Positions 11,384-40,201 of a stretch of DNA of 64,000 nt are shown here, piece by piece; the stretch's first letter is position 1, and each line of letters begins with the position of its first letter. Source of the DNA: Arthrobacter luteolus NBRC 107841 (lineage in GTDB: Bacteria; Actinomycetota; Actinomycetes; Actinomycetales; Micrococcaceae); assembly GCF_001552075.1 (NCBI RefSeq), contig NZ_BCQM01000002.1, positions 310,001 through 374,000 on the forward strand. Direction: 5' to 3'. The position numbers were made by a program, and so were the translations under genes. The notes beneath the pieces are model-generated. The model did not search any database. It was not told where the DNA came from and was given only the letters and a program-made list of their open reading frames with translations.

Positions 11384-12265
11384 TTACTTGGCTTCCAGGA
11401 TGTCGACCACGAACACCAGGGTCTCGTTCTGGAGTTCGTTGCCCTCAGCTGCGCCGTAGGCAGTGGCAGGCGGCGCAACAATCAGCACCTGGGATCCGAC
11501 CTTCTTGCCGGCCAGTCCGTCGGTCCAGGCCGAAATAACCTGGTCCAGGCCGAAGGAGGTGGCGCTTCCGCGCTCCCAGCTGGAGTCAAAGACGCTGCCG
11601 TCGGAGTACTTCACGCCGTGGTACTGCACCGTGACTGTGTCATCGGCTTCCACTACGGCGCCGTCGCCGGTTTTGAGTTCCTGGGCCACCAGTTCCGTGG
11701 GTGCTTCACCTTCGGGAATGGTGATGGTCGGCTTGCCGTCCTCAGCGAGGGTAACCGTCGGCAGGCCGTCGACCGGTGCGACGTCGGCGCCCCAGGCACG
11801 GGTGGGGACGTCGCGGGCGTCGGAGAGGGTGAAGACGATGAACTGCGCGGCGGTGCCGGCAGTCTCATTGGCAGGCACGTAGTACGCGAAGTCTGAGCCG
11901 ATGGGCGCACCGACCAGTGCGCTGTACATCTGCTCATTACCCTGCTTCAGGGTGTCGTCCACGGCAATGTCTTCGGCTGTTTCAGCGGTGTAGGTCTCCT
12001 GGCCGGCTTCTCCGCTCTCCGGATCGAGCACCACGAGGCGGACGGAGGCGGTCTGTCCTGCGGTGAGTTCCTCCCCGTCGCCGTCGTTGACCCGCACCAG
12101 GGTGGGCTCGTCAACGCTCAGGGGCGTGTCGAACTCGACGGTCGGCACCGTGTTGTCACCGTTGGAACTGACCTTCACGGAGGACAGGGGCTCGGAACTG
12201 CTGCTGCCGGAGCAGGCGGTGAGCAGCAAAAGGGCGGGCAGGAGCAGAGCTAGTACTTTTCGCAC
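11384..12265 (-). CDS. FKBP-type peptidyl-prolyl isomerase, lipoprotein
   Basis: 293 residues. The N-terminus is a lipoprotein signal peptide (MRKVLALLLPALLLLTAC, lipobox LTAC, Cys18), followed by a Ser-rich linker. A C-terminal FKBP domain (about residues 195-293) has VTVQYHGVKYSDGSVFDSSW and FGLDQVISAWTDGL. The middle region resembles a degenerate second FKBP-like fold. It would act at the outer face of the membrane on exported proteins. The GTG start at 12265 places the signal peptide at the N-terminus, and a GAAAGAAG purine run lies just upstream. It follows pafA on the same strand after a 136-bp gap. Confidence 0.92.
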   Translation of the reverse strand: MRKVLALLLPALLLLTACSGSSSSEPLSSVKVSSNGDNTVPTVEFDTPLSVDEPTLVRVNDGDGEELTAGQTASVRLVVLDPESGEAGQETYTAETAEDIAVDDTLKQGNEQMYSALVGAPIGSDFAYYVPANETAGTAAQFIVFTLSDARDVPTRAWGADVAPVDGLPTVTLAEDGKPTITIPEGEAPTELVAQELKTGDGAVVEADDTVTVQYHGVKYSDGSVFDSSWERGSATSFGLDQVISAWTDGLAGKKVGSQVLIVAPPATAYGAAEGNELQNETLVFVVDILEAK

Positions 12266-26042: not shown

Positions 26043-27229
26043 CCCGCGTCCTGTATATCCGTGCTGCCGGTTTCGCCTGCCTGCTCCTGGTCCACCGGGC
26101 CCAGCAGGGCATTTGCCATGGTGTTGTGGGCGGAATCCTCGCTTGAAGGATGGAACATACCGGCAAGGACGTCGCGGTACAGCCGCTCCAGTTCCTGGCC
26201 GCGGAAGTAGCTCCGGCCGCCGGCCACCTTCAGGGCGGTTTCAACGACCCCGCGGACGGTATCGGTGGTGCGCAGCTTGAGTCCTGACAGCCGCGCGAAC
26301 CAGAACCCGCCGTGGTCCGCCCCGGATTCGAGGTCACGGGCCACGGCCTCCAGCTCCAGCGCGGCTCCGTCCATCCGGATGGCCGCGTCGGCGATCCGCC
26401 ACCGGGTATGCGGATCCTGGGTTGCCGGCACCCCGTCCGGTTTCCGGAAGGCTGCGGCCTCGGCCGCAAGGGTGACCGCCCGGTCCCCGATCCCGGTGTA
26501 GACCGCGGAGAGCAGTGTTTCAAAAAGACTGAAGATGCCGAACACGAACAGATCAGCGTGCGGCCCCACCGGGGTGTGCCGGACGATCCGTTCCGAGGGC
26601 ACAAGAGCGCCCTCCAGCACCGTGGTGCAGGACTGGGAAGCCCGCATCCCCATGGTGTCCCAGTCATCCAGCGTGGTGATCCCCCCGGTGTCCCGGTCGG
26701 CAAAACCAAATACGAGCCGCGGCTCGTCGGGATCAGTGCTGTCCTTGCCGAAAATGCCCAGCCGCGTCCACGCCGGGGACAGGCTGGTGAAGATCTTGCG
26801 TCCGGTGAAGGCGTAGCCGCCGCTGCGCGGTTCTGCCACCGTCTTGGAATCGAAAAGCACGGCGCTGTTTCCCGGTTCGGAGATGCCGAACGCAAAGACC
26901 TCACCGCGCGCCGCTTCCTCGAGGACGAAGGCAAGCGAGTCATCACCCCGCAGCGAGAGCAGATGCGCCACCCCGCACCAGACCAGGTGCATGTTGATGG
27001 CCAGTGCGGTGGCCGGCGCAGCGGAAGCCAGCAGCCGCTGGCAGGCGGCCACCTCCGGGATGCCGAGTCCGGCTCCGCCCTGTGCGGGTGTGGAAAACAA
27101 TGCCAGGTAGCCGGCACGGCGGAGGTCCTCGAGGTCTTCGGCAAAGAACTCGTTGCGCCGGTCGTATTCCGGTGCCCGGCTGCGCAGCCGTTCGAGGAGT
27201 TCGGGGCTGAGGATATCTCCGGCAGACAT
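26039..27229 (-). CDS. Acyl-CoA dehydrogenase family protein
   Basis: 396 residues, normal for the family. It has an N-terminal helical domain, a mid beta-domain with FGISEPGNSAVLFDSKTVAE...YAFTGRKIFTSLSPAW (FAD/substrate region), WDTMGMRASQS, and the C-terminal helical bundle (YFRGQELERLYRDVLAGMFHPSSEDSAHN). It lacks the usual ExxxR-type catalytic glutamate context that I can identify, so it may instead be a flavin-dependent hydroxylase or desulfurisation-type member. A good AAGGAAG site precedes the ATG. The M20 peptidase gene lies 73 bp upstream on the same strand. Confidence 0.85.
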   Translation of the reverse strand: MSAGDILSPELLERLRSRAPEYDRRNEFFAEDLEDLRRAGYLALFSTPAQGGAGLGIPEVAACQRLLASAAPATALAINMHLVWCGVAHLLSLRGDDSLAFVLEEAARGEVFAFGISEPGNSAVLFDSKTVAEPRSGGYAFTGRKIFTSLSPAWTRLGIFGKDSTDPDEPRLVFGFADRDTGGITTLDDWDTMGMRASQSCTTVLEGALVPSERIVRHTPVGPHADLFVFGIFSLFETLLSAVYTGIGDRAVTLAAEAAAFRKPDGVPATQDPHTRWRIADAAIRMDGAALELEAVARDLESGADHGGFWFARLSGLKLRTTDTVRGVVETALKVAGGRSYFRGQELERLYRDVLAGMFHPSSEDSAHNTMANALLGPVDQEQAGETGSTDIQDAG

Positions 27230-32424: not shown

Positions 32425-33657
32425 CTACCTGCTGCCCTCAAGTTCCTCCGCAATCGCCTCGATGCCCGTCCATGTCTCCGCGAACGACGTCGACAGCGGT
32501 GAGAGGCCCAGCCGGATGCCGTCCGGGTTGCGGTAGTCCGGGATGATGCCGCGCTGCCACAGCCGTGCGGTGATGTCCTTGAACGCCGGATGGTCGATGG
32601 TGATGTGGCTGCCCCTGCTCGCCGGGTCCCGCGGGGACGCGAGCACAACACCGTACCGGGCCAGGACCTCGTCCACAGCTTCGACGGCGAAGGCCGTCAG
32701 GGCTACGGACTTTGCCCGCACAGCCTGGATCCCCACGCGGGCGATGAGGCTTGCCATGTCCTGCATGGCGAGCATCCCCAGGATGGGTGGGGTTCCGGAG
32801 ACCACCCGCGCAATACCGGCAGCCGGCACGTACTCAGCCCCCATGGCGAAGGGGTCACCGGCACCCAGCCACCCCTGGATCGGCTGCGTAAAAGTCTCCT
32901 GGTGCCGGCGGGCAACGTAGGCCCAGGCGGGCGCGCCGGGGCCGCCGTTGAGGTATTTATAGCTGCAGCCCGCCGCGTAGTCCACATTCCAGGCATCCAG
33001 TTCCGCCGGCACCGAGCCGGCCGAATGGCACAGGTCCCACAGCACCCGTCCGCCTGCCGCGTGGACCAGTCCGGTGATCGCCGGAACATCGGCGATAAAC
33101 CCGGAACGGTAGGCCACATGGCTCAGCACCACCAGGGCGGTCCGGGGTCCGACGGCGGCCGCAACCGCTTCGGGCGACACACCGCCGTCGTAAGCCGCAT
33201 CCACCCAGCGCAGGGTCAGCCCGCACTCGCGGGCGATGCCGTCCATCACATACCGGTCGGTGGGAAAGTTGTCCCGGTCCAGTACGATCTCCGTGCGCCC
33301 GGTCCCTGCGGCAACGGCGGCGCGGGCCAGCTTGTACAGCAGGACCGTGGTTGAGTCGGCGACGATGCACTGACCCGGAGCCGCGCCCAGGACGCTGGCC
33401 CCGAGCTGGTCGCCGACCGCCGCGGGCAGGCCCAGCCAGCCCTCGTCCCATCCGCGGATCAACCGGCCGCCCCACGCCTCACTGATGAACTCGGCCATCC
33501 GGTCCAGTGTTGCCGCCAGCGGCCGGCCCAGGGAGTTGCCGTCCAGGTAGGCACTGACACCGGGATCATTGTGCCCGATGAACAGTTCACGCAGGCCGGC
33601 CAGTGGATCTGCGGCGTCGAGTTCCTTGGCGCGGTTCAGGAAGGTGGAGGCTGTCAT
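32425..33657 (-). CDS. kynU: Kynureninase
   Basis: 410 residues, fold type I PLP enzyme. YLDGNSLG at residues 37-44, VLDRDNFPTDRYV, LSHVAYRSGF, WDLCHSAG and the PLP lysine in CSYKYLNGGPG (Lys234) match kynureninase. It cleaves kynurenine or 3-hydroxykynurenine to anthranilate or 3-hydroxyanthranilate and alanine. No other kynurenine-pathway gene is in the window. It ends 99 bp from the convergent usp gene and begins 18 bp after the MaoC gene's stop. Confidence 0.94.
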   Translation of the reverse strand: MTASTFLNRAKELDAADPLAGLRELFIGHNDPGVSAYLDGNSLGRPLAATLDRMAEFISEAWGGRLIRGWDEGWLGLPAAVGDQLGASVLGAAPGQCIVADSTTVLLYKLARAAVAAGTGRTEIVLDRDNFPTDRYVMDGIARECGLTLRWVDAAYDGGVSPEAVAAAVGPRTALVVLSHVAYRSGFIADVPAITGLVHAAGGRVLWDLCHSAGSVPAELDAWNVDYAAGCSYKYLNGGPGAPAWAYVARRHQETFTQPIQGWLGAGDPFAMGAEYVPAAGIARVVSGTPPILGMLAMQDMASLIARVGIQAVRAKSVALTAFAVEAVDEVLARYGVVLASPRDPASRGSHITIDHPAFKDITARLWQRGIIPDYRNPDGIRLGLSPLSTSFAETWTGIEAIAEELEGSR

Positions 33658-33675: not shown

Positions 33676-34593
33676 CTAAACGCCGGTCGATCCTCCCGCC
33701 GCACCCAGCGGACGCGCGGCTCCGTGGAAATGACGGCGGCGGGTCCGCTGGTTCCAGCCGGTGAACGTGGTTTCCCCGCGCTCCCCCGGTGATCCGGCGT
33801 CTGAAATCCGCAGGCTGACCGTCGCTGGGAGGAACACCGGAGACTCGAAGTCAATCTCCCATTCGAACGGTTCCTGCACTGCCGGCCCCGTCTCCGCGAC
33901 CACCCGGGAGGCGAGGTACATCCCGTGGGCGATCGAGCGTTTCATGCCCAGCGCCTTGGCGGACAGGCTGCTGAGATGGATGGGGTTGAAGTCGCCGGAG
34001 ACCCTGGCATAGTTCCGCCCGGCATCCGCACCGAGCCGCCACTGCGCCGTGGGCAGCGGCGGAACGAAGTCGGCCCGTTCCGCGCCGCGGGCCGGACGGT
34101 CGAGCCGGGGAAGGAACACGCCCTTCGCGAGGTACGTGGACCTCCCGGTCCAAACCAGTTCCGTCCCGGACCGGACTTCGGCGACCAGCTCAACCCGGGT
34201 TCCGGCACGGTGGCCGGCCAGGTTTTCCGCCCATGCCGTCACGGACAGCGGTTCCGTGTAGTGGATCGGCCGCAGGTGCCGGACCTCGTTGCGCAGATGC
34301 ACCATTCCCAGCAGCGGCAGCGGGAAGTCCTCCCGCGCCATGACACTCATGGCCACCGGGAACGCGAACGTGTGGACGTATCCGGAGGGAAGGGTGTCCT
34401 GCGCGTTGTGCATGACCAGCCGCTGGAAGTCCGTCAGCTTTGCCAGGTCCACCCGGGCCTGCGGCACGGAGTGCCGCGCCGCAGGAAGCTCGTCCGTGGA
34501 CGGCGGCGACAGCCTGCTGCGGGCAGCGTTGCCCACGGCGGCGAGGTACAGCCGTCCGAGGGCCGGGATTTCCTCCAGTTCCTGCACGCTCAT
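33676..34593 (-). CDS. MaoC/HtdX-type (R)-specific enoyl-CoA hydratase
   Basis: 305 residues, a double hotdog protein. The C-terminal hotdog has the hydratase-2 motif YARVSGDFNPIHLSSLSAKALG with catalytic Asp201 and His206 (and Asn203), followed by IAHGMYLASRVV. It should hydrate trans-2-enoyl-CoA to (3R)-3-hydroxyacyl-CoA. The family size and neighbours match HtdX (Rv0241c) next to fabG4 in M. tuberculosis. The ATG overlaps the stop of the FabG4-type gene by 4 bp. Confidence 0.9.
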   Translation of the reverse strand: MSVQELEEIPALGRLYLAAVGNAARSRLSPPSTDELPAARHSVPQARVDLAKLTDFQRLVMHNAQDTLPSGYVHTFAFPVAMSVMAREDFPLPLLGMVHLRNEVRHLRPIHYTEPLSVTAWAENLAGHRAGTRVELVAEVRSGTELVWTGRSTYLAKGVFLPRLDRPARGAERADFVPPLPTAQWRLGADAGRNYARVSGDFNPIHLSSLSAKALGMKRSIAHGMYLASRVVAETGPAVQEPFEWEIDFESPVFLPATVSLRISDAGSPGERGETTFTGWNQRTRRRHFHGAARPLGAAGGSTGV

Positions 34594-35930
34594 GCGCCCA
34601 CCATATTCTGGCCGCAGACCCGCAGGACAGTGCCGTTGATACCGGCGGCCGCATCCGAGGCCAGGAAGGCGATGGTTTCAGCGACGTCCAGGGGAAGCCC
34701 GCCCTGCTGCAGGCTGGAGAGCCGGCGGGCGACCTGCCGGGTCAGGGCAGGCATCCGGGCAGTCATGTCTGTTTCGATGAAGCCCGGCGCCACGGCGTTG
34801 ATTGATCCGCCCCGCGGAGCCAGCAGCGGTGCGGTGGCCTGGACCATGCCGATGATCCCGGCCTTCGACGCGGCGTAGTTGGTTTGCCCACGGTTCCCCG
34901 CGATGCCGCTGGTTGAGGCCAGGGAGACAATCCGGCCGCTCCGGCTGAAAGTCTCCGAGGCCAGGAAGCGCTCGTTCATCTTCAGCTGGGAGGAAATGTT
35001 GACGGCCAGTACCGAATCCCAGCGGGAGGAGTCCATGTTGGCGAGCAGCTTGTCCCGGGTAATGCCGGCATTGTGGATCACAATGTCCAGGTGCCCGTAG
35101 CGGTCCGCCGCGTGCTGCAGGATCCGGTCCGCGGCGTCATCCCGGGTGATGTCAACCTGCAGGGCCGTTCCGCCGATTTCGTTGGCCACGGCAGCAAGCT
35201 GCTCCCCGGCGGCGGGAACGTCAACCACAATCACCGTGGCGCCTTCGCGGTGCAGCACCCGGGCGATCGAAGCGCCGATTCCACGGGCTGCCCCGGTAAC
35301 GACGGCGGTTTTCCCGGCCAGCGAGGCCGTCCAGTCCGCCGGCAGCTCACCGGAGGCAGAACCGACGGTGATGAACTGGCCGTTGACGTAGGCGCTGCGG
35401 CCGGAGAGCAGGAAGTGCAGGGCGGCGGCCACGGATGGTGCGCCGGCGTCCGTGCCGTTGGCCAGCACGATGCCGTTGGCGGTGGCGCCTCCCCGCAGTT
35501 CATGGGCGAGGGACCGGAGGGTCCCGTCGATGCCCTGCCGGACTGCGGCGGCTGCCGGGTCCCCGGCTTCGGCGGCCGGACGGGAAACGGTGATGATCCG
35601 CCCGCCGGGGGCCAGATCCCGCAGGCTCGCACCGGCGTCGAGCACGACGGCGGAGAGGTCCTCCGGAGCGAGGGCCTCGTCCAGAACCAGGAGGATGGCG
35701 CCCAGGCGTTCCTTCGGAGTGGCATGCCGGCGCACATCCTGCTGCCAGGAAAGCAGCGTGGACGCCAGCACATCCGCCGACTCTCCCTTGCCCAGCAGCA
35801 GCACAGGGCCGGGGACCAGCGGTTTGGCAGGATCAAAGCGCCGCAGCACGGCCGGCCGGGGCAGGCCGAGTTTTTTGGCGATTTCCTTGGTGAAGCCGGA
35901 ATTTACAAGGTTCAGATAGGCATCGGTCAT
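34590..35930 (-). CDS. fabG4: FabG4-type high-molecular-weight 3-ketoacyl reductase / (3R)-hydroxyacyl-CoA dehydrogenase
   Basis: 446 residues. An N-terminal non-catalytic flavodoxin-like domain (about 1-195) is followed by a classical SDR domain with TGAARGIG (212-219), HNAG (286-289), Ser339, Tyr352 and Lys356 in the NYAASK motif. M. tuberculosis FabG4 (Rv0242c, 454 residues) has this architecture and prefers NADH and CoA-linked substrates. In this operon it most likely oxidises or reduces (3R)-hydroxyacyl-CoA/3-ketoacyl-CoA. It lies 2 bp after fadA2 and overlaps the MaoC gene by 4 bp. Confidence 0.93.
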   Translation of the reverse strand: MTDAYLNLVNSGFTKEIAKKLGLPRPAVLRRFDPAKPLVPGPVLLLGKGESADVLASTLLSWQQDVRRHATPKERLGAILLVLDEALAPEDLSAVVLDAGASLRDLAPGGRIITVSRPAAEAGDPAAAAVRQGIDGTLRSLAHELRGGATANGIVLANGTDAGAPSVAAALHFLLSGRSAYVNGQFITVGSASGELPADWTASLAGKTAVVTGAARGIGASIARVLHREGATVIVVDVPAAGEQLAAVANEIGGTALQVDITRDDAADRILQHAADRYGHLDIVIHNAGITRDKLLANMDSSRWDSVLAVNISSQLKMNERFLASETFSRSGRIVSLASTSGIAGNRGQTNYAASKAGIIGMVQATAPLLAPRGGSINAVAPGFIETDMTARMPALTRQVARRLSSLQQGGLPLDVAETIAFLASDAAAGINGTVLRVCGQNMVGA

Positions 35931-35932
35931 GA

Positions 35933-37264
35933 TCAGCGCGCCTCCAGGATAGCCACGAGGCCCTGGCCGCCGGCGGCGCAGATGGAAATCAGCCCCCGGC
36001 CGGAGCCCTTCTCGTGCAGCATCTTCGCCAGGCTGGCGACAATCCGGCCGCCGGTGGCCGCGAACGGGTGGCCGGCTGCGAGGGAGGAACCATTAACGTT
36101 CAGCCTGCTGCGGTCAATACTTCCCAGCGGACCCTCCAGGCCCAGCCGGGTGCGGCAGAATTCGTCGTCTTCCCATGCCGCGAGGGTGCTGAGCACCGTC
36201 CCTGCGAAAGCCTCGTGGATTTCGAAGAAGTCGAAGTCATCGAAGCTGAGGTTGTTCCGGGCCAGCAGCCGCGGAACGGCGAAGGCCGGGGCCATCAGGA
36301 GGCCGTCCCGGCCGTGGACGAAATCGACCGCACCGGCCTCGGCGTCGACAATGTTGGCGAGCATGGGAAGGTCGTTCTCCCGCGCATAGTCCTCGGAACC
36401 CAGCAGCACCACGGAGGCACCGTCGGTGAGCGGTGTGGAGTTGCCGGCCGTCATGGTCGCTTCGTCACCCAGTGCCCGGCCGAAGACGGGTTTGAGGGAC
36501 GCGAGTTTCTCCAGGGAGGTATCGGCGCGCAGGTTGGAGTCCTTGGACAGGCCCCGGTAAGGGGTCAGGAGGTCATCGAAGAACCCGCGGTCATAGGCGG
36601 CCGCCAGGTTCCGGTGGCTGTTGTAAGCCAGCTCGTCCTGGCTTTCCCGGGTGATCTTCCACTGTGCCGTCGTGAGCGCCTGATGTTCCCCCATGGACAG
36701 CCCGGTCCGGGGTTCGCCGGTGTTGGGCGCATTCGGCGCCAGGTCCCTGGGCCGGATCTTCGCAACGGCCGCGATCTTCTGCTTGGTGGTCCGGGCCCGG
36801 GAGAGATCCAGCAGTGCGCGGCGCAGCCCTTCGCTGACGGCGATGGGGGCATCGGAGGCGGAGTCGACGCCACCGGCGATCCCGGACTCCAGCTGACCCA
36901 GCTTGATCTTGTTGGCCAGGGACACCACGGTCTCGAGTCCCGTCGCGCAGGCCTGCTGAACGTCGTAGGCCGGCGTCTGGGGCGAAAGCGCGGAACCCAG
37001 CACCGCTTCGCGGGTCAGGTTGAAGTCCCGGGAGTGCTTCAGGACTGCACCGGCGGCAACGGCGCCAATCCGCTCGTTTTGGAGGCCGAACCGGGCCACC
37101 AGTCCGTCCAGTGCGGCGGTCAGCATGTCCTGGTTGGAGCTGTGTGCGTACGCTCCGCCGGACCGGGCAAACGGGATGCGGTTGCCGCCGATGACCACGG
37201 CATTCCGCACGGCGGGACCTGAGGGCTGGGCGGGCCGGGGCGCGGACGTGGGTTGAGCAGCCAT
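35933..37264 (-). CDS. fadA2: Acetyl-CoA C-acyltransferase (thiolase) FadA2-type
   Basis: 443 residues. Thiolase motifs are VQQACATGLE (nucleophile Cys106), NVNGSSLAAGHPFAATGGRI (His) and ISICAAGGQG (second Cys). The length and sequence are of the FadA2/FadI type. It cleaves 3-ketoacyl-CoA with CoA, or condenses acyl-CoAs. The ATG has a strong AAGGAGAT site. It is the first gene of the fadA2-fabG4-maoC operon, and its start lies 43 bp from a perfect 27-bp palindrome shared with divergent tetR. Confidence 0.94.
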   Translation of the reverse strand: MAAQPTSAPRPAQPSGPAVRNAVVIGGNRIPFARSGGAYAHSSNQDMLTAALDGLVARFGLQNERIGAVAAGAVLKHSRDFNLTREAVLGSALSPQTPAYDVQQACATGLETVVSLANKIKLGQLESGIAGGVDSASDAPIAVSEGLRRALLDLSRARTTKQKIAAVAKIRPRDLAPNAPNTGEPRTGLSMGEHQALTTAQWKITRESQDELAYNSHRNLAAAYDRGFFDDLLTPYRGLSKDSNLRADTSLEKLASLKPVFGRALGDEATMTAGNSTPLTDGASVVLLGSEDYARENDLPMLANIVDAEAGAVDFVHGRDGLLMAPAFAVPRLLARNNLSFDDFDFFEIHEAFAGTVLSTLAAWEDDEFCRTRLGLEGPLGSIDRSRLNVNGSSLAAGHPFAATGGRIVASLAKMLHEKGSGRGLISICAAGGQGLVAILEAR

Positions 37265-37307
37265 TCGTCGATCTCCTTGGGGGTCGGTGTGTGACGGGAG
37301 TTACTGT

Positions 37308-37334
37308 TACCCAGCGTACCTGATACGCTGGGTA
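37308..37334. promoter_or_regulatory. 27-bp perfect palindrome, likely TetR operator
   Basis: TACCCAGCGTA (37308-37318), CCTGA, then TACGCTGGGTA (37324-37334): 11-bp perfect arms around 5 bp. It ends 2 bp before the tetR GTG, and its right arm contains TACGCT, a possible tetR -10. It is the only conspicuous element between divergent tetR-acox and fadA2-fabG4-maoC, so one regulator dimer pair could control both. Confidence 0.85.
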
Positions 37335-37336
37335 TC

Positions 37337-38095
37337 GTGAACAGCGCAGTGAAACAAACCACATCTGCACCGGATGGCCGCTCCATCCGGTGGGAAGCCC
37401 ACCGGGCCGAGCGCCGCGGCGCCCTGATCAGGGCCGCCCGCCGCGCTGTGCACACCCTCGGTGCACAGGCATCGATGGAGGAGATCGCCGCCGCCTCAGG
37501 GACCTCGAAATCCGTCTACTACCGGTATTTCGGTGACAAGTCAGGGCTGCAGCAGGCGATGGGTGAAGTGGTTATCAACCAGATGCAGGAGAAGATCCTG
37601 GCGGCCGCCCGCAGCGCTGCCTCTCCCCGGTCCGGCCTGCGCGCCATGGTTTCCGCCTATCTGCAGATGGCGCAGACCTCCCCCAACGTGTATGCCTTCG
37701 TCACTGGAAGTCCCGCCGGTGAAGCGGCAGCAACGAACGGAAACGGTGTTGCCGCCGCCCTTTCAGACTTTTTCGCCAATATCAGCGCCATGATGGACCA
37801 CGCCGTGAAGGCCTACCTGGAAGGCCATGAATCGAATGCCCTGACCCAGGCCGCCGCCGGCTTCTGGCCGACAGCAGCCCTGGGCATGGTCCGGGCCGCC
37901 GGTGAGCGCTGGCTCGCCACGCCTCCCGGACCGGGCCGTCCCACCGAAGCAGAAATGACCGACCAGCTGACCGTCTGGTTGTTCGACGGCATCGGATGGG
38001 ACACCCCGGACCCCGCACTGACTTCAGACTCATCCTCAGCCACACCGCCGAACCGCACCGGGCGCAGGCCCGCCGCAGCCGGTGCCGACAAGTAA
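37337..38095 (+). CDS. TetR/AcrR family transcriptional regulator
   Basis: 252 residues. The N-terminal HTH (about residues 28-75) includes RGALIRAARRAVHTLGAQASMEEIAAASGTSKSVYYRYFGDKSGL, a typical TetR DNA-binding helix set. The helical C-terminal ligand domain is followed by a Ser/Pro/Arg-rich tail of about 30 residues. The likely ligand is an acyl-CoA or fatty-acid-derived effector, inferred from the flanking genes. The GTG start has no ribosome binding site and directly follows the palindrome. It is 9 bp upstream of the acyl-CoA oxidase gene. Confidence 0.92.
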   Translation: MNSAVKQTTSAPDGRSIRWEAHRAERRGALIRAARRAVHTLGAQASMEEIAAASGTSKSVYYRYFGDKSGLQQAMGEVVINQMQEKILAAARSAASPRSGLRAMVSAYLQMAQTSPNVYAFVTGSPAGEAAATNGNGVAAALSDFFANISAMMDHAVKAYLEGHESNALTQAAAGFWPTAALGMVRAAGERWLATPPGPGRPTEAEMTDQLTVWLFDGIGWDTPDPALTSDSSSATPPNRTGRRPAAAGADK

Positions 38096-38104
38096 GGACA
38101 CGCC

Positions 38105-40201
38105 ATGACGCAATCAGTCTCCACTCCCGAGCGCGAGCTTCCGGCCAGCACCGTCATCAGCGATGACGATACGGCTACGGTCAACGTCGAGGCCCTGGGC
38201 CGCGCACTGCTTGGCAAGTGGCACGACATCCGGCTGCAGGCCCGCAGGCTGGCGGGCAGCGACGCCCTGCACACACCTGCGGGGCTGACCCACACCGAGC
38301 ACCGGCTGCGGGTTATGGACCAGCTGAAGGTACTGGTGGACGCTGACGCCGTGCACCGGGCGTTCCCGGCCTACGTCGGTGGCCAGGACAACCACGGGGG
38401 CAACATCGCCGGCTTCGAGGAACTGGTGGTTGCAGACCCCTCCCTGCAGATCAAGGCCGGCGTCCAGTGGGGCCTCTTCGGCTCCGCTGTCCTGCATCTG
38501 GGCACCCGGGAGCACCATGAGAAATGGCTTCCGGGGATCATGAGCCTGGACATTCCGGGCTGCTTTGCGATGACGGAAACCGGCCACGGTTCCGACGTCT
38601 CCAGCATCGCCACCACCGCCGAGTACGACGCAGCGGCCCGGGAATTCATCATCAACACCCCGTTCCGCGCGGCCTGGAAGGACTACATCGGCAACGCGGC
38701 AGTCAACGGCAAGGCGGCCGTGGTCTTCGCGCACCTGATCACCAAAGGCGTGGACCATGGCGTTCACGCCTTCTATGTGGAGCTCCGCGATGACAACGGC
38801 TTCCTGCCCGGGGTTGGCGGCGAAGACGACGGCGTCAAGGGCGGGCTTAACGGCATCGACAACGGCCGCCTGCATTTCGACAACGTCCGGATCCCCCGGA
38901 CCAACCTGCTCAACCGCTACGGTGACGTTGCTGAGGACGGTACCTATTCCTCGACCATCGAGAGCCCGGGGCGCCGGTTCTTCACCATGATCGGCACCCT
39001 GGTCCAGGGCCGGGTCTCCCTGGACGGGGCAGCCGTCGCCGCCTCCAAGCTCGGCCTCAAGATCGCCGTCCAGTACGCCACGGAGCGCCGCCAGTTCAAC
39101 GGCGGCTCCGACACGGTCGAGGAAGTCCTGATGGACTACCAGCAGCACCAGCGCCGGCTGCTGCCGCTGCTGGCCACCACCTACGCGGCATCGTTCGCGC
39201 ACGATGAACTGCTTGCCAAGTTCGATGACGTTTTCTCCGGCGCCGACGACACCGTTGAGAACCGCCAGGACCTGGAAACCCTCGCCGCGGCCCTGAAATC
39301 GCTCTCCACCTGGCATGCCCTGGACACCCTGCAGGAATGCCGCGAAGCGACCGGCGGGGCTGGCTTCCTTGCAGAGAACCGGCTGACGGCCCTTCGCGCC
39401 GACCTGGATATCTACGTCACCTTCGAAGGGGACAACACCGTCCTGCTCCAGCTGGTCGCCAAGCGGCTGCTGGCCGATTACGCCAAGGAGTTCCAGGGCG
39501 CCGACTTCGGAGTCCTGGCCCGCTATGTGGTTGGCCAGGCAACTGAGCGCACCTTCAACCGTTCGGGCCTGCGCCGGATCGTGCAGACTGTCGCCGACAC
39601 CGGTTCGGAAAAGAAGTCAGCGATCGCCCTCCGGGACCCCAAGGCGCAGCACGATCTCCTGACCGACCGGGTGGCAACTATGGTCGCCGAAGTCGCCGGT
39701 AACCTGCGCGAAGCACGCAAGCTGCCCAAGGCCGAAGCCGCCGCAGTGTTCAACCAGAACCAGCACGACCTGATCGAGGCGGCCCGCGCGCACGCCGAGC
39801 TGCTGCAGTGGGAAGCCTTCACGCGGGGCCTGGACGGGATTGACGACGCCGGGACGCGCCAGGTGCTTACCTGGCTGCGGGATCTGTTTGGCCTGGGCCT
39901 GATCGAAAAGAACCTGGCCTGGTACCTGATGCACGGCCGGCTGTCCTCCCAGCGGGCCCGCACCCTGGGTGACTACATCAACCGGCTGCTCGCCAAGATC
40001 CGGCCGCACGCCCTGGACCTGGTGGACGCCTTTGGCTACGGCCCGGAGCACCTCCGGGCAGCCGTCGCCACCGGTGCCGAGAAGGCGCGCCAGGACGAAT
40101 CAATGGAGTATCAGCGGCTGCTGCGCGCCAGCGGCGGTGCAGCGATCGACGAGAAGACGCTCCTCCTGCGGAAGAAGCAGGCGGCCAAGGCCAAGGGCTG
40201 A
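38105..40201 (+). CDS. Acyl-CoA oxidase/dehydrogenase (ACOX-type, FadE5-like locus position)
   Basis: 698 residues, far longer than ordinary acyl-CoA dehydrogenases (about 380) and the size of peroxisomal acyl-CoA oxidases. Oxidase-like segments are CFAMTETGHGSD, EFIINTPFRAAWKDYIGNA, HAFYVELRD, DNGRLHFDNVRIPR, RVSLDGAAVAASKLGLKIAV and ECREATGGAGFL. The catalytic base is Glu441 in VTFEGDNTV. It introduces the trans-2 double bond into acyl-CoA; if a true oxidase, FADH2 is reoxidised by O2 to give H2O2. Arthrobacter species are known acyl-CoA oxidase producers. GTAAGGAC precedes the ATG, 9 bp after tetR. Whether it is an oxidase or a dehydrogenase cannot be settled from sequence. Confidence 0.9.
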   Translation: MTQSVSTPERELPASTVISDDDTATVNVEALGRALLGKWHDIRLQARRLAGSDALHTPAGLTHTEHRLRVMDQLKVLVDADAVHRAFPAYVGGQDNHGGNIAGFEELVVADPSLQIKAGVQWGLFGSAVLHLGTREHHEKWLPGIMSLDIPGCFAMTETGHGSDVSSIATTAEYDAAAREFIINTPFRAAWKDYIGNAAVNGKAAVVFAHLITKGVDHGVHAFYVELRDDNGFLPGVGGEDDGVKGGLNGIDNGRLHFDNVRIPRTNLLNRYGDVAEDGTYSSTIESPGRRFFTMIGTLVQGRVSLDGAAVAASKLGLKIAVQYATERRQFNGGSDTVEEVLMDYQQHQRRLLPLLATTYAASFAHDELLAKFDDVFSGADDTVENRQDLETLAAALKSLSTWHALDTLQECREATGGAGFLAENRLTALRADLDIYVTFEGDNTVLLQLVAKRLLADYAKEFQGADFGVLARYVVGQATERTFNRSGLRRIVQTVADTGSEKKSAIALRDPKAQHDLLTDRVATMVAEVAGNLREARKLPKAEAAAVFNQNQHDLIEAARAHAELLQWEAFTRGLDGIDDAGTRQVLTWLRDLFGLGLIEKNLAWYLMHGRLSSQRARTLGDYINRLLAKIRPHALDLVDAFGYGPEHLRAAVATGAEKARQDESMEYQRLLRASGGAAIDEKTLLLRKKQAAKAKG

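Follow-up and report, generated by a model that had tools for sequence, protein, structure and literature searches.

The window analyzed here is a stretch of 64,000 nucleotides from the 3.9 Mb genome of Arthrobacter luteolus NBRC 107841 (G000; contig NZ_BCQM01000002.1, C2:310001-374000), and it carries five genes that probably form a beta-oxidation unit. An earlier note on this DNA had described them as one divergent unit, and all five open reading frames (ORFs) were found intact at the coordinates which that note had given. On the minus strand lie an HtdX-type double-hotdog MaoC protein (305 residues, 33676-34593), a FabG4-type short-chain dehydrogenase/reductase (SDR; 446 residues, 34590-35930) and a FadA2-type 3-ketoacyl-CoA thiolase (443 residues, 35933-37264). 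On the plus strand, a TetR-family regulator (252 residues, 37337-38095) is followed by a protein of the acyl-CoA oxidase (ACOX) family (698 residues, 38105-40201). MaoC and FabG4 overlap by 4 bp, FabG4 and the thiolase are spaced by 2 bp and TetR and ACOX by 9 bp, while a gap of 72 bp separates the two arms.

Family placement of the ACOX protein

The ACOX protein scored over the cut-offs of PF22924 (138.3 bits; cut-off 27) and PF01756 (76.1 bits; cut-off 22.1) and has an extra C-terminal helical domain. Its top matches in the PDB were the peroxisomal oxidases 2fon, 1w07 and 5ys9 (E 9.8e-71 to 1.4e-65), whereas the best dehydrogenase structure reached only 1.3e-14. The alignment of its predicted model to Yarrowia ACOX1 spans 579 residues, and the longest structural overlap was with 5y9d. 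The catalytic base, Glu441, is present within VTFEGDNTV, a FEGDN/YEGDN motif to which the earlier note had drawn attention; this glutamate by itself is common to ACOX proteins and acyl-CoA dehydrogenases (ACADs). The GHGS motif at residues 160-163 was found in 57/57 bacterial and 4/5 eukaryotic ACOX rows (the human protein has GHGT) and in none of the seven ACAD/FadE5-like rows. The phylogeny against oxidases and FadE5, which had been named as a check, separated the 57 bacterial and five eukaryotic ACOX rows from these seven with an SH-aLRT of 99, in a quick tree whose ACAD branches are long. PF12806, the FadE5-type C-terminal domain, was not among the Pfam matches of the window ACOX.

On these sequence grounds, we assign the first enzyme to the acyl-CoA oxidase family and neither to the dehydrogenases nor to the FadE5-like proteins, in keeping with its previously noted resemblance to an oxidase. 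It probably uses O2 as electron acceptor and produces H2O2. No SKL-type C-terminal signal was found on it. Its closest public protein (99%) belongs to Arthrobacter sp. Helios. In the list of its 120 best relatives, the NCBI names displayed are acyl-CoA dehydrogenase, P0092 being the one exception noticed; the JGI names, and some of those in UniRef, are acyl-CoA oxidase. The earlier note had seen no catalase nearby, and there is none in the window; with the three catalases of the genome as queries, all encoded on other contigs, none was found near ACOX in 108 related loci either.

Related ACOX frames with a stop or a frame break inside the matched stretch were seen in L063 and L073 (both Leucobacter) and in L149 (G247), possibly decayed genes or sequence errors. 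Elsewhere in actinobacteria, a cyclic-nucleotide-binding domain, a double hotdog and ACOX are joined in a single chain (L154:6046-9492(+), L151:4414-7890(-) and L146:2136-5534(+); P0001-P0005), possibly an oxidase under cyclic-nucleotide control. The double hotdog of these fusions fits the HtdX profile, nearly at full length in two of the three, and may be inactive because GDxNPxH is altered to GNLxPxH or GNLRPAN.

The FadA2-FabG4-MaoC trio and its regulator

The thiolase matched NF006740 with 765.5 bits (cut-off 539) and, as best PDB entry, FadA2 itself (7xly, E 5.4e-168). Cys106, which the earlier note had singled out, was kept together with His350 and Cys429 in 86/86 rows of related ORFs from the fetched loci (blastp E <= 1e-80), and the histidine of the GHP motif is present in the window protein. 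FabG4 matched NF006110 over residues 1-446, the N-terminal domain included (614.2 bits, cut-off 410), and the FabG4 structures 3u0b and 5vp5 (E 5.5e-118). Its Ser339-Tyr352-Lys356 triad is intact, as had been claimed, and these residues, together with Asp237, were kept in 83/83 rows selected in the same way. Asp237 stands at the end of the second strand and is the presumed cofactor aspartate, placed by sequence only; the protein is probably an NAD(H)-dependent (3R)-hydroxyacyl-CoA dehydrogenase.

The motif characteristic of hydratase 2 is GDxNPxH. The MaoC protein (PF01575) matches it in full, again in agreement with the earlier note, with YARVSGDFNPIHLSSLSA from residue 195 in the second half of the double hotdog, where Asp201 and His206 are located. 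Trimmed after the histidine and relaxed at two positions, the motif was found in 61/61 rows, namely the window protein and 60 ORFs of 250-419 residues with E < 1e-15. With the HtdX structures 3wew and 4oob, the similarity (E 5.5e-31) extends over residues 48-266 and covers both hotdogs, and MaoC is a probable (R)-enoyl-CoA hydratase.

These matches to solved HtdX (5.5e-31), FabG4 (5.5e-118) and FadA2 (5.4e-168), together with the intact active sites, bear out the proposed parallel with the mycobacterial htdX-fabG4-fadA2 genes, near which we take fadE5 to lie. In the accessible text of PMC6008564, M. tuberculosis FabG4 is NADH-specific through a single aspartate and has a reductase rate four times its dehydrogenase rate, HtdX is a hydroxyacyl-CoA dehydratase in preliminary assays, and FabG4 and htdX are a conserved pair.

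The TetR protein scored over the cut-offs of PF00440 and PF19344 and of no NCBIfam model. In the divergent gap, we identified a palindrome of 27 bp (37308-37334, without strand), TACCCAGCGTA-CCTGA-TACGCTGGGTA, whose 11-bp arms are 100% complementary. Its centre, GTACCTGATAC, is invariant across 14 aligned Arthrobacter gaps; in the outer arms, some changes are paired on both sides and others break the symmetry. This 11-mer occurs once, in the gap, and was exact in 47 of 54 TetR-bearing loci and at one mismatch in the remaining seven, whereas the exact form was found in 0/14 loci without a detected TetR, in which one-mismatch forms were not sought; since the species are related, these counts weigh less than independent ones would. 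The palindrome thus follows TetR through evolution, a tie between the unit and its own regulator that is new in this analysis. The window genome contains one exact site, and three more at three mismatches compared with one for a reversed control pattern. With a single exact site, TetR seems dedicated to the unit, and we read it as a local repressor with one target and the palindrome as its probable operator. In the linked unit L121 (G085, 11680-11840), from another family, the divergent gap contains a different palindrome, GTAGCAGGTAC-TGCGC-GTACCTGCTAC, whose arm has GTACCTG in common with the Arthrobacter operator.

Conservation and distribution of the unit

A scan of genome contigs with patterns from the window ACOX yielded 68 ACOX loci, a sample that favors close relatives because the patterns were taken from this protein; the closest came from Arthrobacter species. 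MaoC, FabG4 and FadA2 all lie within 6 kb of ACOX in 55 of these loci, with the order and strands of the window. The unit is partial close to contig ends in four (L038, L040, L060 and L070) and absent in nine, eight from Microbacteriaceae and one an Arthrobacter agilis record. One locus, L045 (WNZI01000004.1), is titled Vibrio cholerae strain 35D and contains the entire Arthrobacter-type module with the operator core; the assembly was most likely mislabelled or contaminated.

Across 396 genomes sampled evenly over the phylum, ACOX (E <= 1e-3) was found in 45, FabG4 (E <= 1e-100) in 41 and both in 32 (odds ratio 94, Fisher p 1e-28, uncorrected for ancestry), leaving nine of the 41 FabG4 genomes without ACOX. 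Conversely, FabG4 was missing from five family f4 genomes that encode ACOX and that fall together with Microbacteriaceae in the tree. The coupling of the oxidase to the trio, implied by the earlier note, stood among the close loci but only in part across the phylum: ACOX and the trio are neighbors in only seven of the 32 genomes that hold both. These seven are the window genome and its family member G008; G085 and G307, from another family within the same taxonomic order; and G009, G051 and G075, from another class, in which the four enzyme genes all run in a single direction. Of the 25 unlinked genomes, 10 have ACOX and FabG4 on one contig with 200 kb or more between them, and 15 have them on separate contigs. 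Mapped on the ACOX tree, the linked and unlinked states require at least four changes among the 57 rows.

FadA2 and MaoC adjoin FabG4 in all 20 further FabG4 loci that were fetched away from ACOX, out of the 41 FabG4 genomes, which makes the trio the core and ACOX one possible attachment. FadA2 is on the opposite strand in many of these loci, whereas in the window it shares the strand of FabG4 and MaoC. Acyl-CoA dehydrogenase genes were found within about 7 kb of the trio in five of the 20 (L161 and L171-L174); they directly adjoin FadA2 in L172, L173 and L174, are more distant in L161 and L171, and form tandem pairs in three of the four loci L171-L174. In L161, a 611-residue dehydrogenase with PF12806, called FadE5-like because of its length and place, lies 1.6 kb beyond the trio, where the window has TetR and ACOX with one shared operator. 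In several lineages, therefore, the partner of the trio is an acyl-CoA-oxidizing flavoenzyme: FadA2-FabG4-MaoC is a wider actinobacterial trio, with ACOX as its neighbor in some lineages and dehydrogenases in others, and the enzyme that opens the pathway seems to be interchangeable. L159 (G139), from a genome of the window's order, keeps TetR, FadA2, FabG4 and MaoC and gave no ACOX match.

Downstream of MaoC by 18 bp, on the same minus strand, lies a gene for a kynureninase-like pyridoxal phosphate (PLP) enzyme (32425-33657), over the cut-offs of PF22580 and PF00266 and below that of TIGR01814 (227.6 bits; cut-off 246.4). It is possibly co-transcribed with the MaoC arm, is dispensable for the cycle proposed below and, in 25 of the 68 related loci, is found no more than 6 kb from ACOX. 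This gene, the operator palindrome and the FadA-FadB pair described in the next section were all absent from the earlier note.

A probable second beta-oxidation route and its relation to the peroxisome

The genome also encodes a FadA adjoining a full-length FadB (L009), a cluster of hydroxybutyryl-CoA dehydrogenase, enoyl-CoA hydratase and thiolase (L008) and electron transfer flavoprotein (ETF). It has thirteen Acyl-CoA_dh_N matches, ACOX among them; a weak one lies in the window at 26972-27193(-) (G000:C2:336972-337193; E 9.4e-5, in a 435-residue frame). No PhaC (polyhydroxyalkanoate, PHA, synthase) match was found. FadB-type proteins (E <= 1e-50) are present in 243 of the 396 genomes and, among the 32 with both ACOX and FabG4, only G058, a draft of 310 contigs, gave no match. 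The FadA-FadB complex, built on the crotonase and 3HCDH folds and S-specific, carries out the same overall reaction as the unit, and FabG4 shows no significant similarity to the genome's own FadB. The earlier proposal that these genes could form a complete cycle distinct from the FadB route is supported as far as one conserved unit of the trio and ACOX goes; given FadA-FadB and ETF in the same genome, however, the unit is a second, parallel beta-oxidation route and not a replacement, and it most likely serves particular acyl-CoA substrates or particular conditions.

In this cycle, ACOX would oxidize acyl-CoA, passing the electrons to O2 and forming H2O2. The HtdX-type MaoC would hydrate trans-2-enoyl-CoA to (3R)-hydroxyacyl-CoA, which FabG4 would convert with NAD+ into 3-ketoacyl-CoA, and FadA2 would cleave the latter into acetyl-CoA and a shortened acyl-CoA. 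Bound to the single palindrome in the 72-bp gap, TetR would repress both arms and would be released by an inducer, probably an acyl-CoA. The substrates of the unit are perhaps branched or long-chain acids.

We regard a dedicated, TetR-controlled second beta-oxidation unit of the oxidase type as the likely explanation: the earlier note is right on the gene content, and the function that it proposed, an oxidase-type R-specific cycle, is probable. Were the ACOX-type protein an ETF-linked dehydrogenase, the unit would be an ordinary dehydrogenase-type R-specific cycle, like the trio loci that bear dehydrogenases. The ETF of the genome, the dehydrogenase genes in five of the 20 other loci, the NCBI names of the 120 best relatives listed (P0092 excepted) and the lack of a catalase beside the ACOX gene all agree with this, but the C-terminal domain, the grouping with eukaryotic oxidases away from dehydrogenases and the oxidase names in JGI and, in part, UniRef make it improbable. 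Slightly less probable still is that the trio runs reductively, in acyl-CoA chain elongation or modification, with ACOX acting separately. Elongation is proposed for M. tuberculosis FabG4 and HtdX in the accessible text of PMC6008564, and nine of the 41 FabG4 genomes lack ACOX; however, a thiolase and an oxidizing flavoenzyme around one operator fit breakdown, and the dehydrogenases of other trio loci, the lack of a PhaC match and the presumed NAD-type Asp237 in 83/83 rows also speak against synthesis.

A third possibility, compatible with the oxidase-type unit that we prefer, concerns what it degrades: a special acyl-CoA, such as a natural-product side chain, a branched or dicarboxylic acid or a kynurenine-linked aromatic acid, instead of general fatty acids. 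The general FadA-FadB pair and the kynureninase-like gene 18 bp after MaoC favor this specialization, which we nevertheless hold to be rather unlikely, as that gene is near ACOX in only 25/68 loci; other constant neighbors were not sought systematically.

The peroxisome likeness claimed by the earlier note fared differently from enzyme to enzyme. Peroxisomal beta-oxidation (ACOX, MFE-2, thiolase) has the same reaction types in the same order, and peroxisomal ACOX is a close homologue of the window protein. MFE-2 combines SDR and hotdog folds, fusing an SDR with hydratase 2, whereas the window has separate ORFs, and the window FabG4 and HtdX-type MaoC are closer to bacterial FabG and HtdX than to MFE-2. 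The (3R)-hydroxyacyl-CoA dehydrogenase chain 2et6, presumably from a fungal MFE-2, ranked only 18th for FabG4 (1.2e-46), after ordinary FabG structures, and no MFE-2 hydratase was named among the 18 PDB matches of MaoC. The MFE-2 parallel is therefore one of reaction and fold and not of close descent.

Peroxisome-type bacterial beta-oxidation has been proposed for Geobacillus thermoleovorans B23 from activities in extracts (PMC2676291), where a short-chain acyl-CoA oxidase gene of Streptomyces fradiae is also cited; the accessible text of that source names neither an oxidase gene of the strain nor R-specific steps. According to the accessible text of PMC8593149, yeast Pox3 rescued M. tuberculosis ETF mutants, so an oxidase can drive beta-oxidation in an actinobacterium. 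Among the matches listed from open-licence PubMed Central, subscription journals being outside this scope, no title or abstract start described ACOX linked to HtdX-FabG4-FadA2.

Tentatively and with slightly less than even confidence, we suggest that bacteria possess complete, separately regulated, R-specific beta-oxidation units of the oxidase type, which already join a peroxisomal-family ACOX to hydratase 2, to an R-dehydrogenase and to a thiolase, and that the peroxisome was therefore not necessarily where oxidase and R route were first coupled. If true, such an early coupling would contradict the suggestion that Pox1p stood outside beta-oxidation until Pox2p joined. For annotation, the dehydrogenase names that NCBI gives to the ACOX relatives, P0092 apart among the best 120 listed, are also at issue. 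If H2O2 is made and (3R)-hydroxyacyl-CoA used, a cycle of the peroxisome type would operate in the open cytosol of common soil actinobacteria, and the unit would offer a genetic system for asking why an oxidase is maintained beside ETF-linked enzymes, what becomes of the H2O2, and whether the oxidase and the R route joined before peroxisomes.

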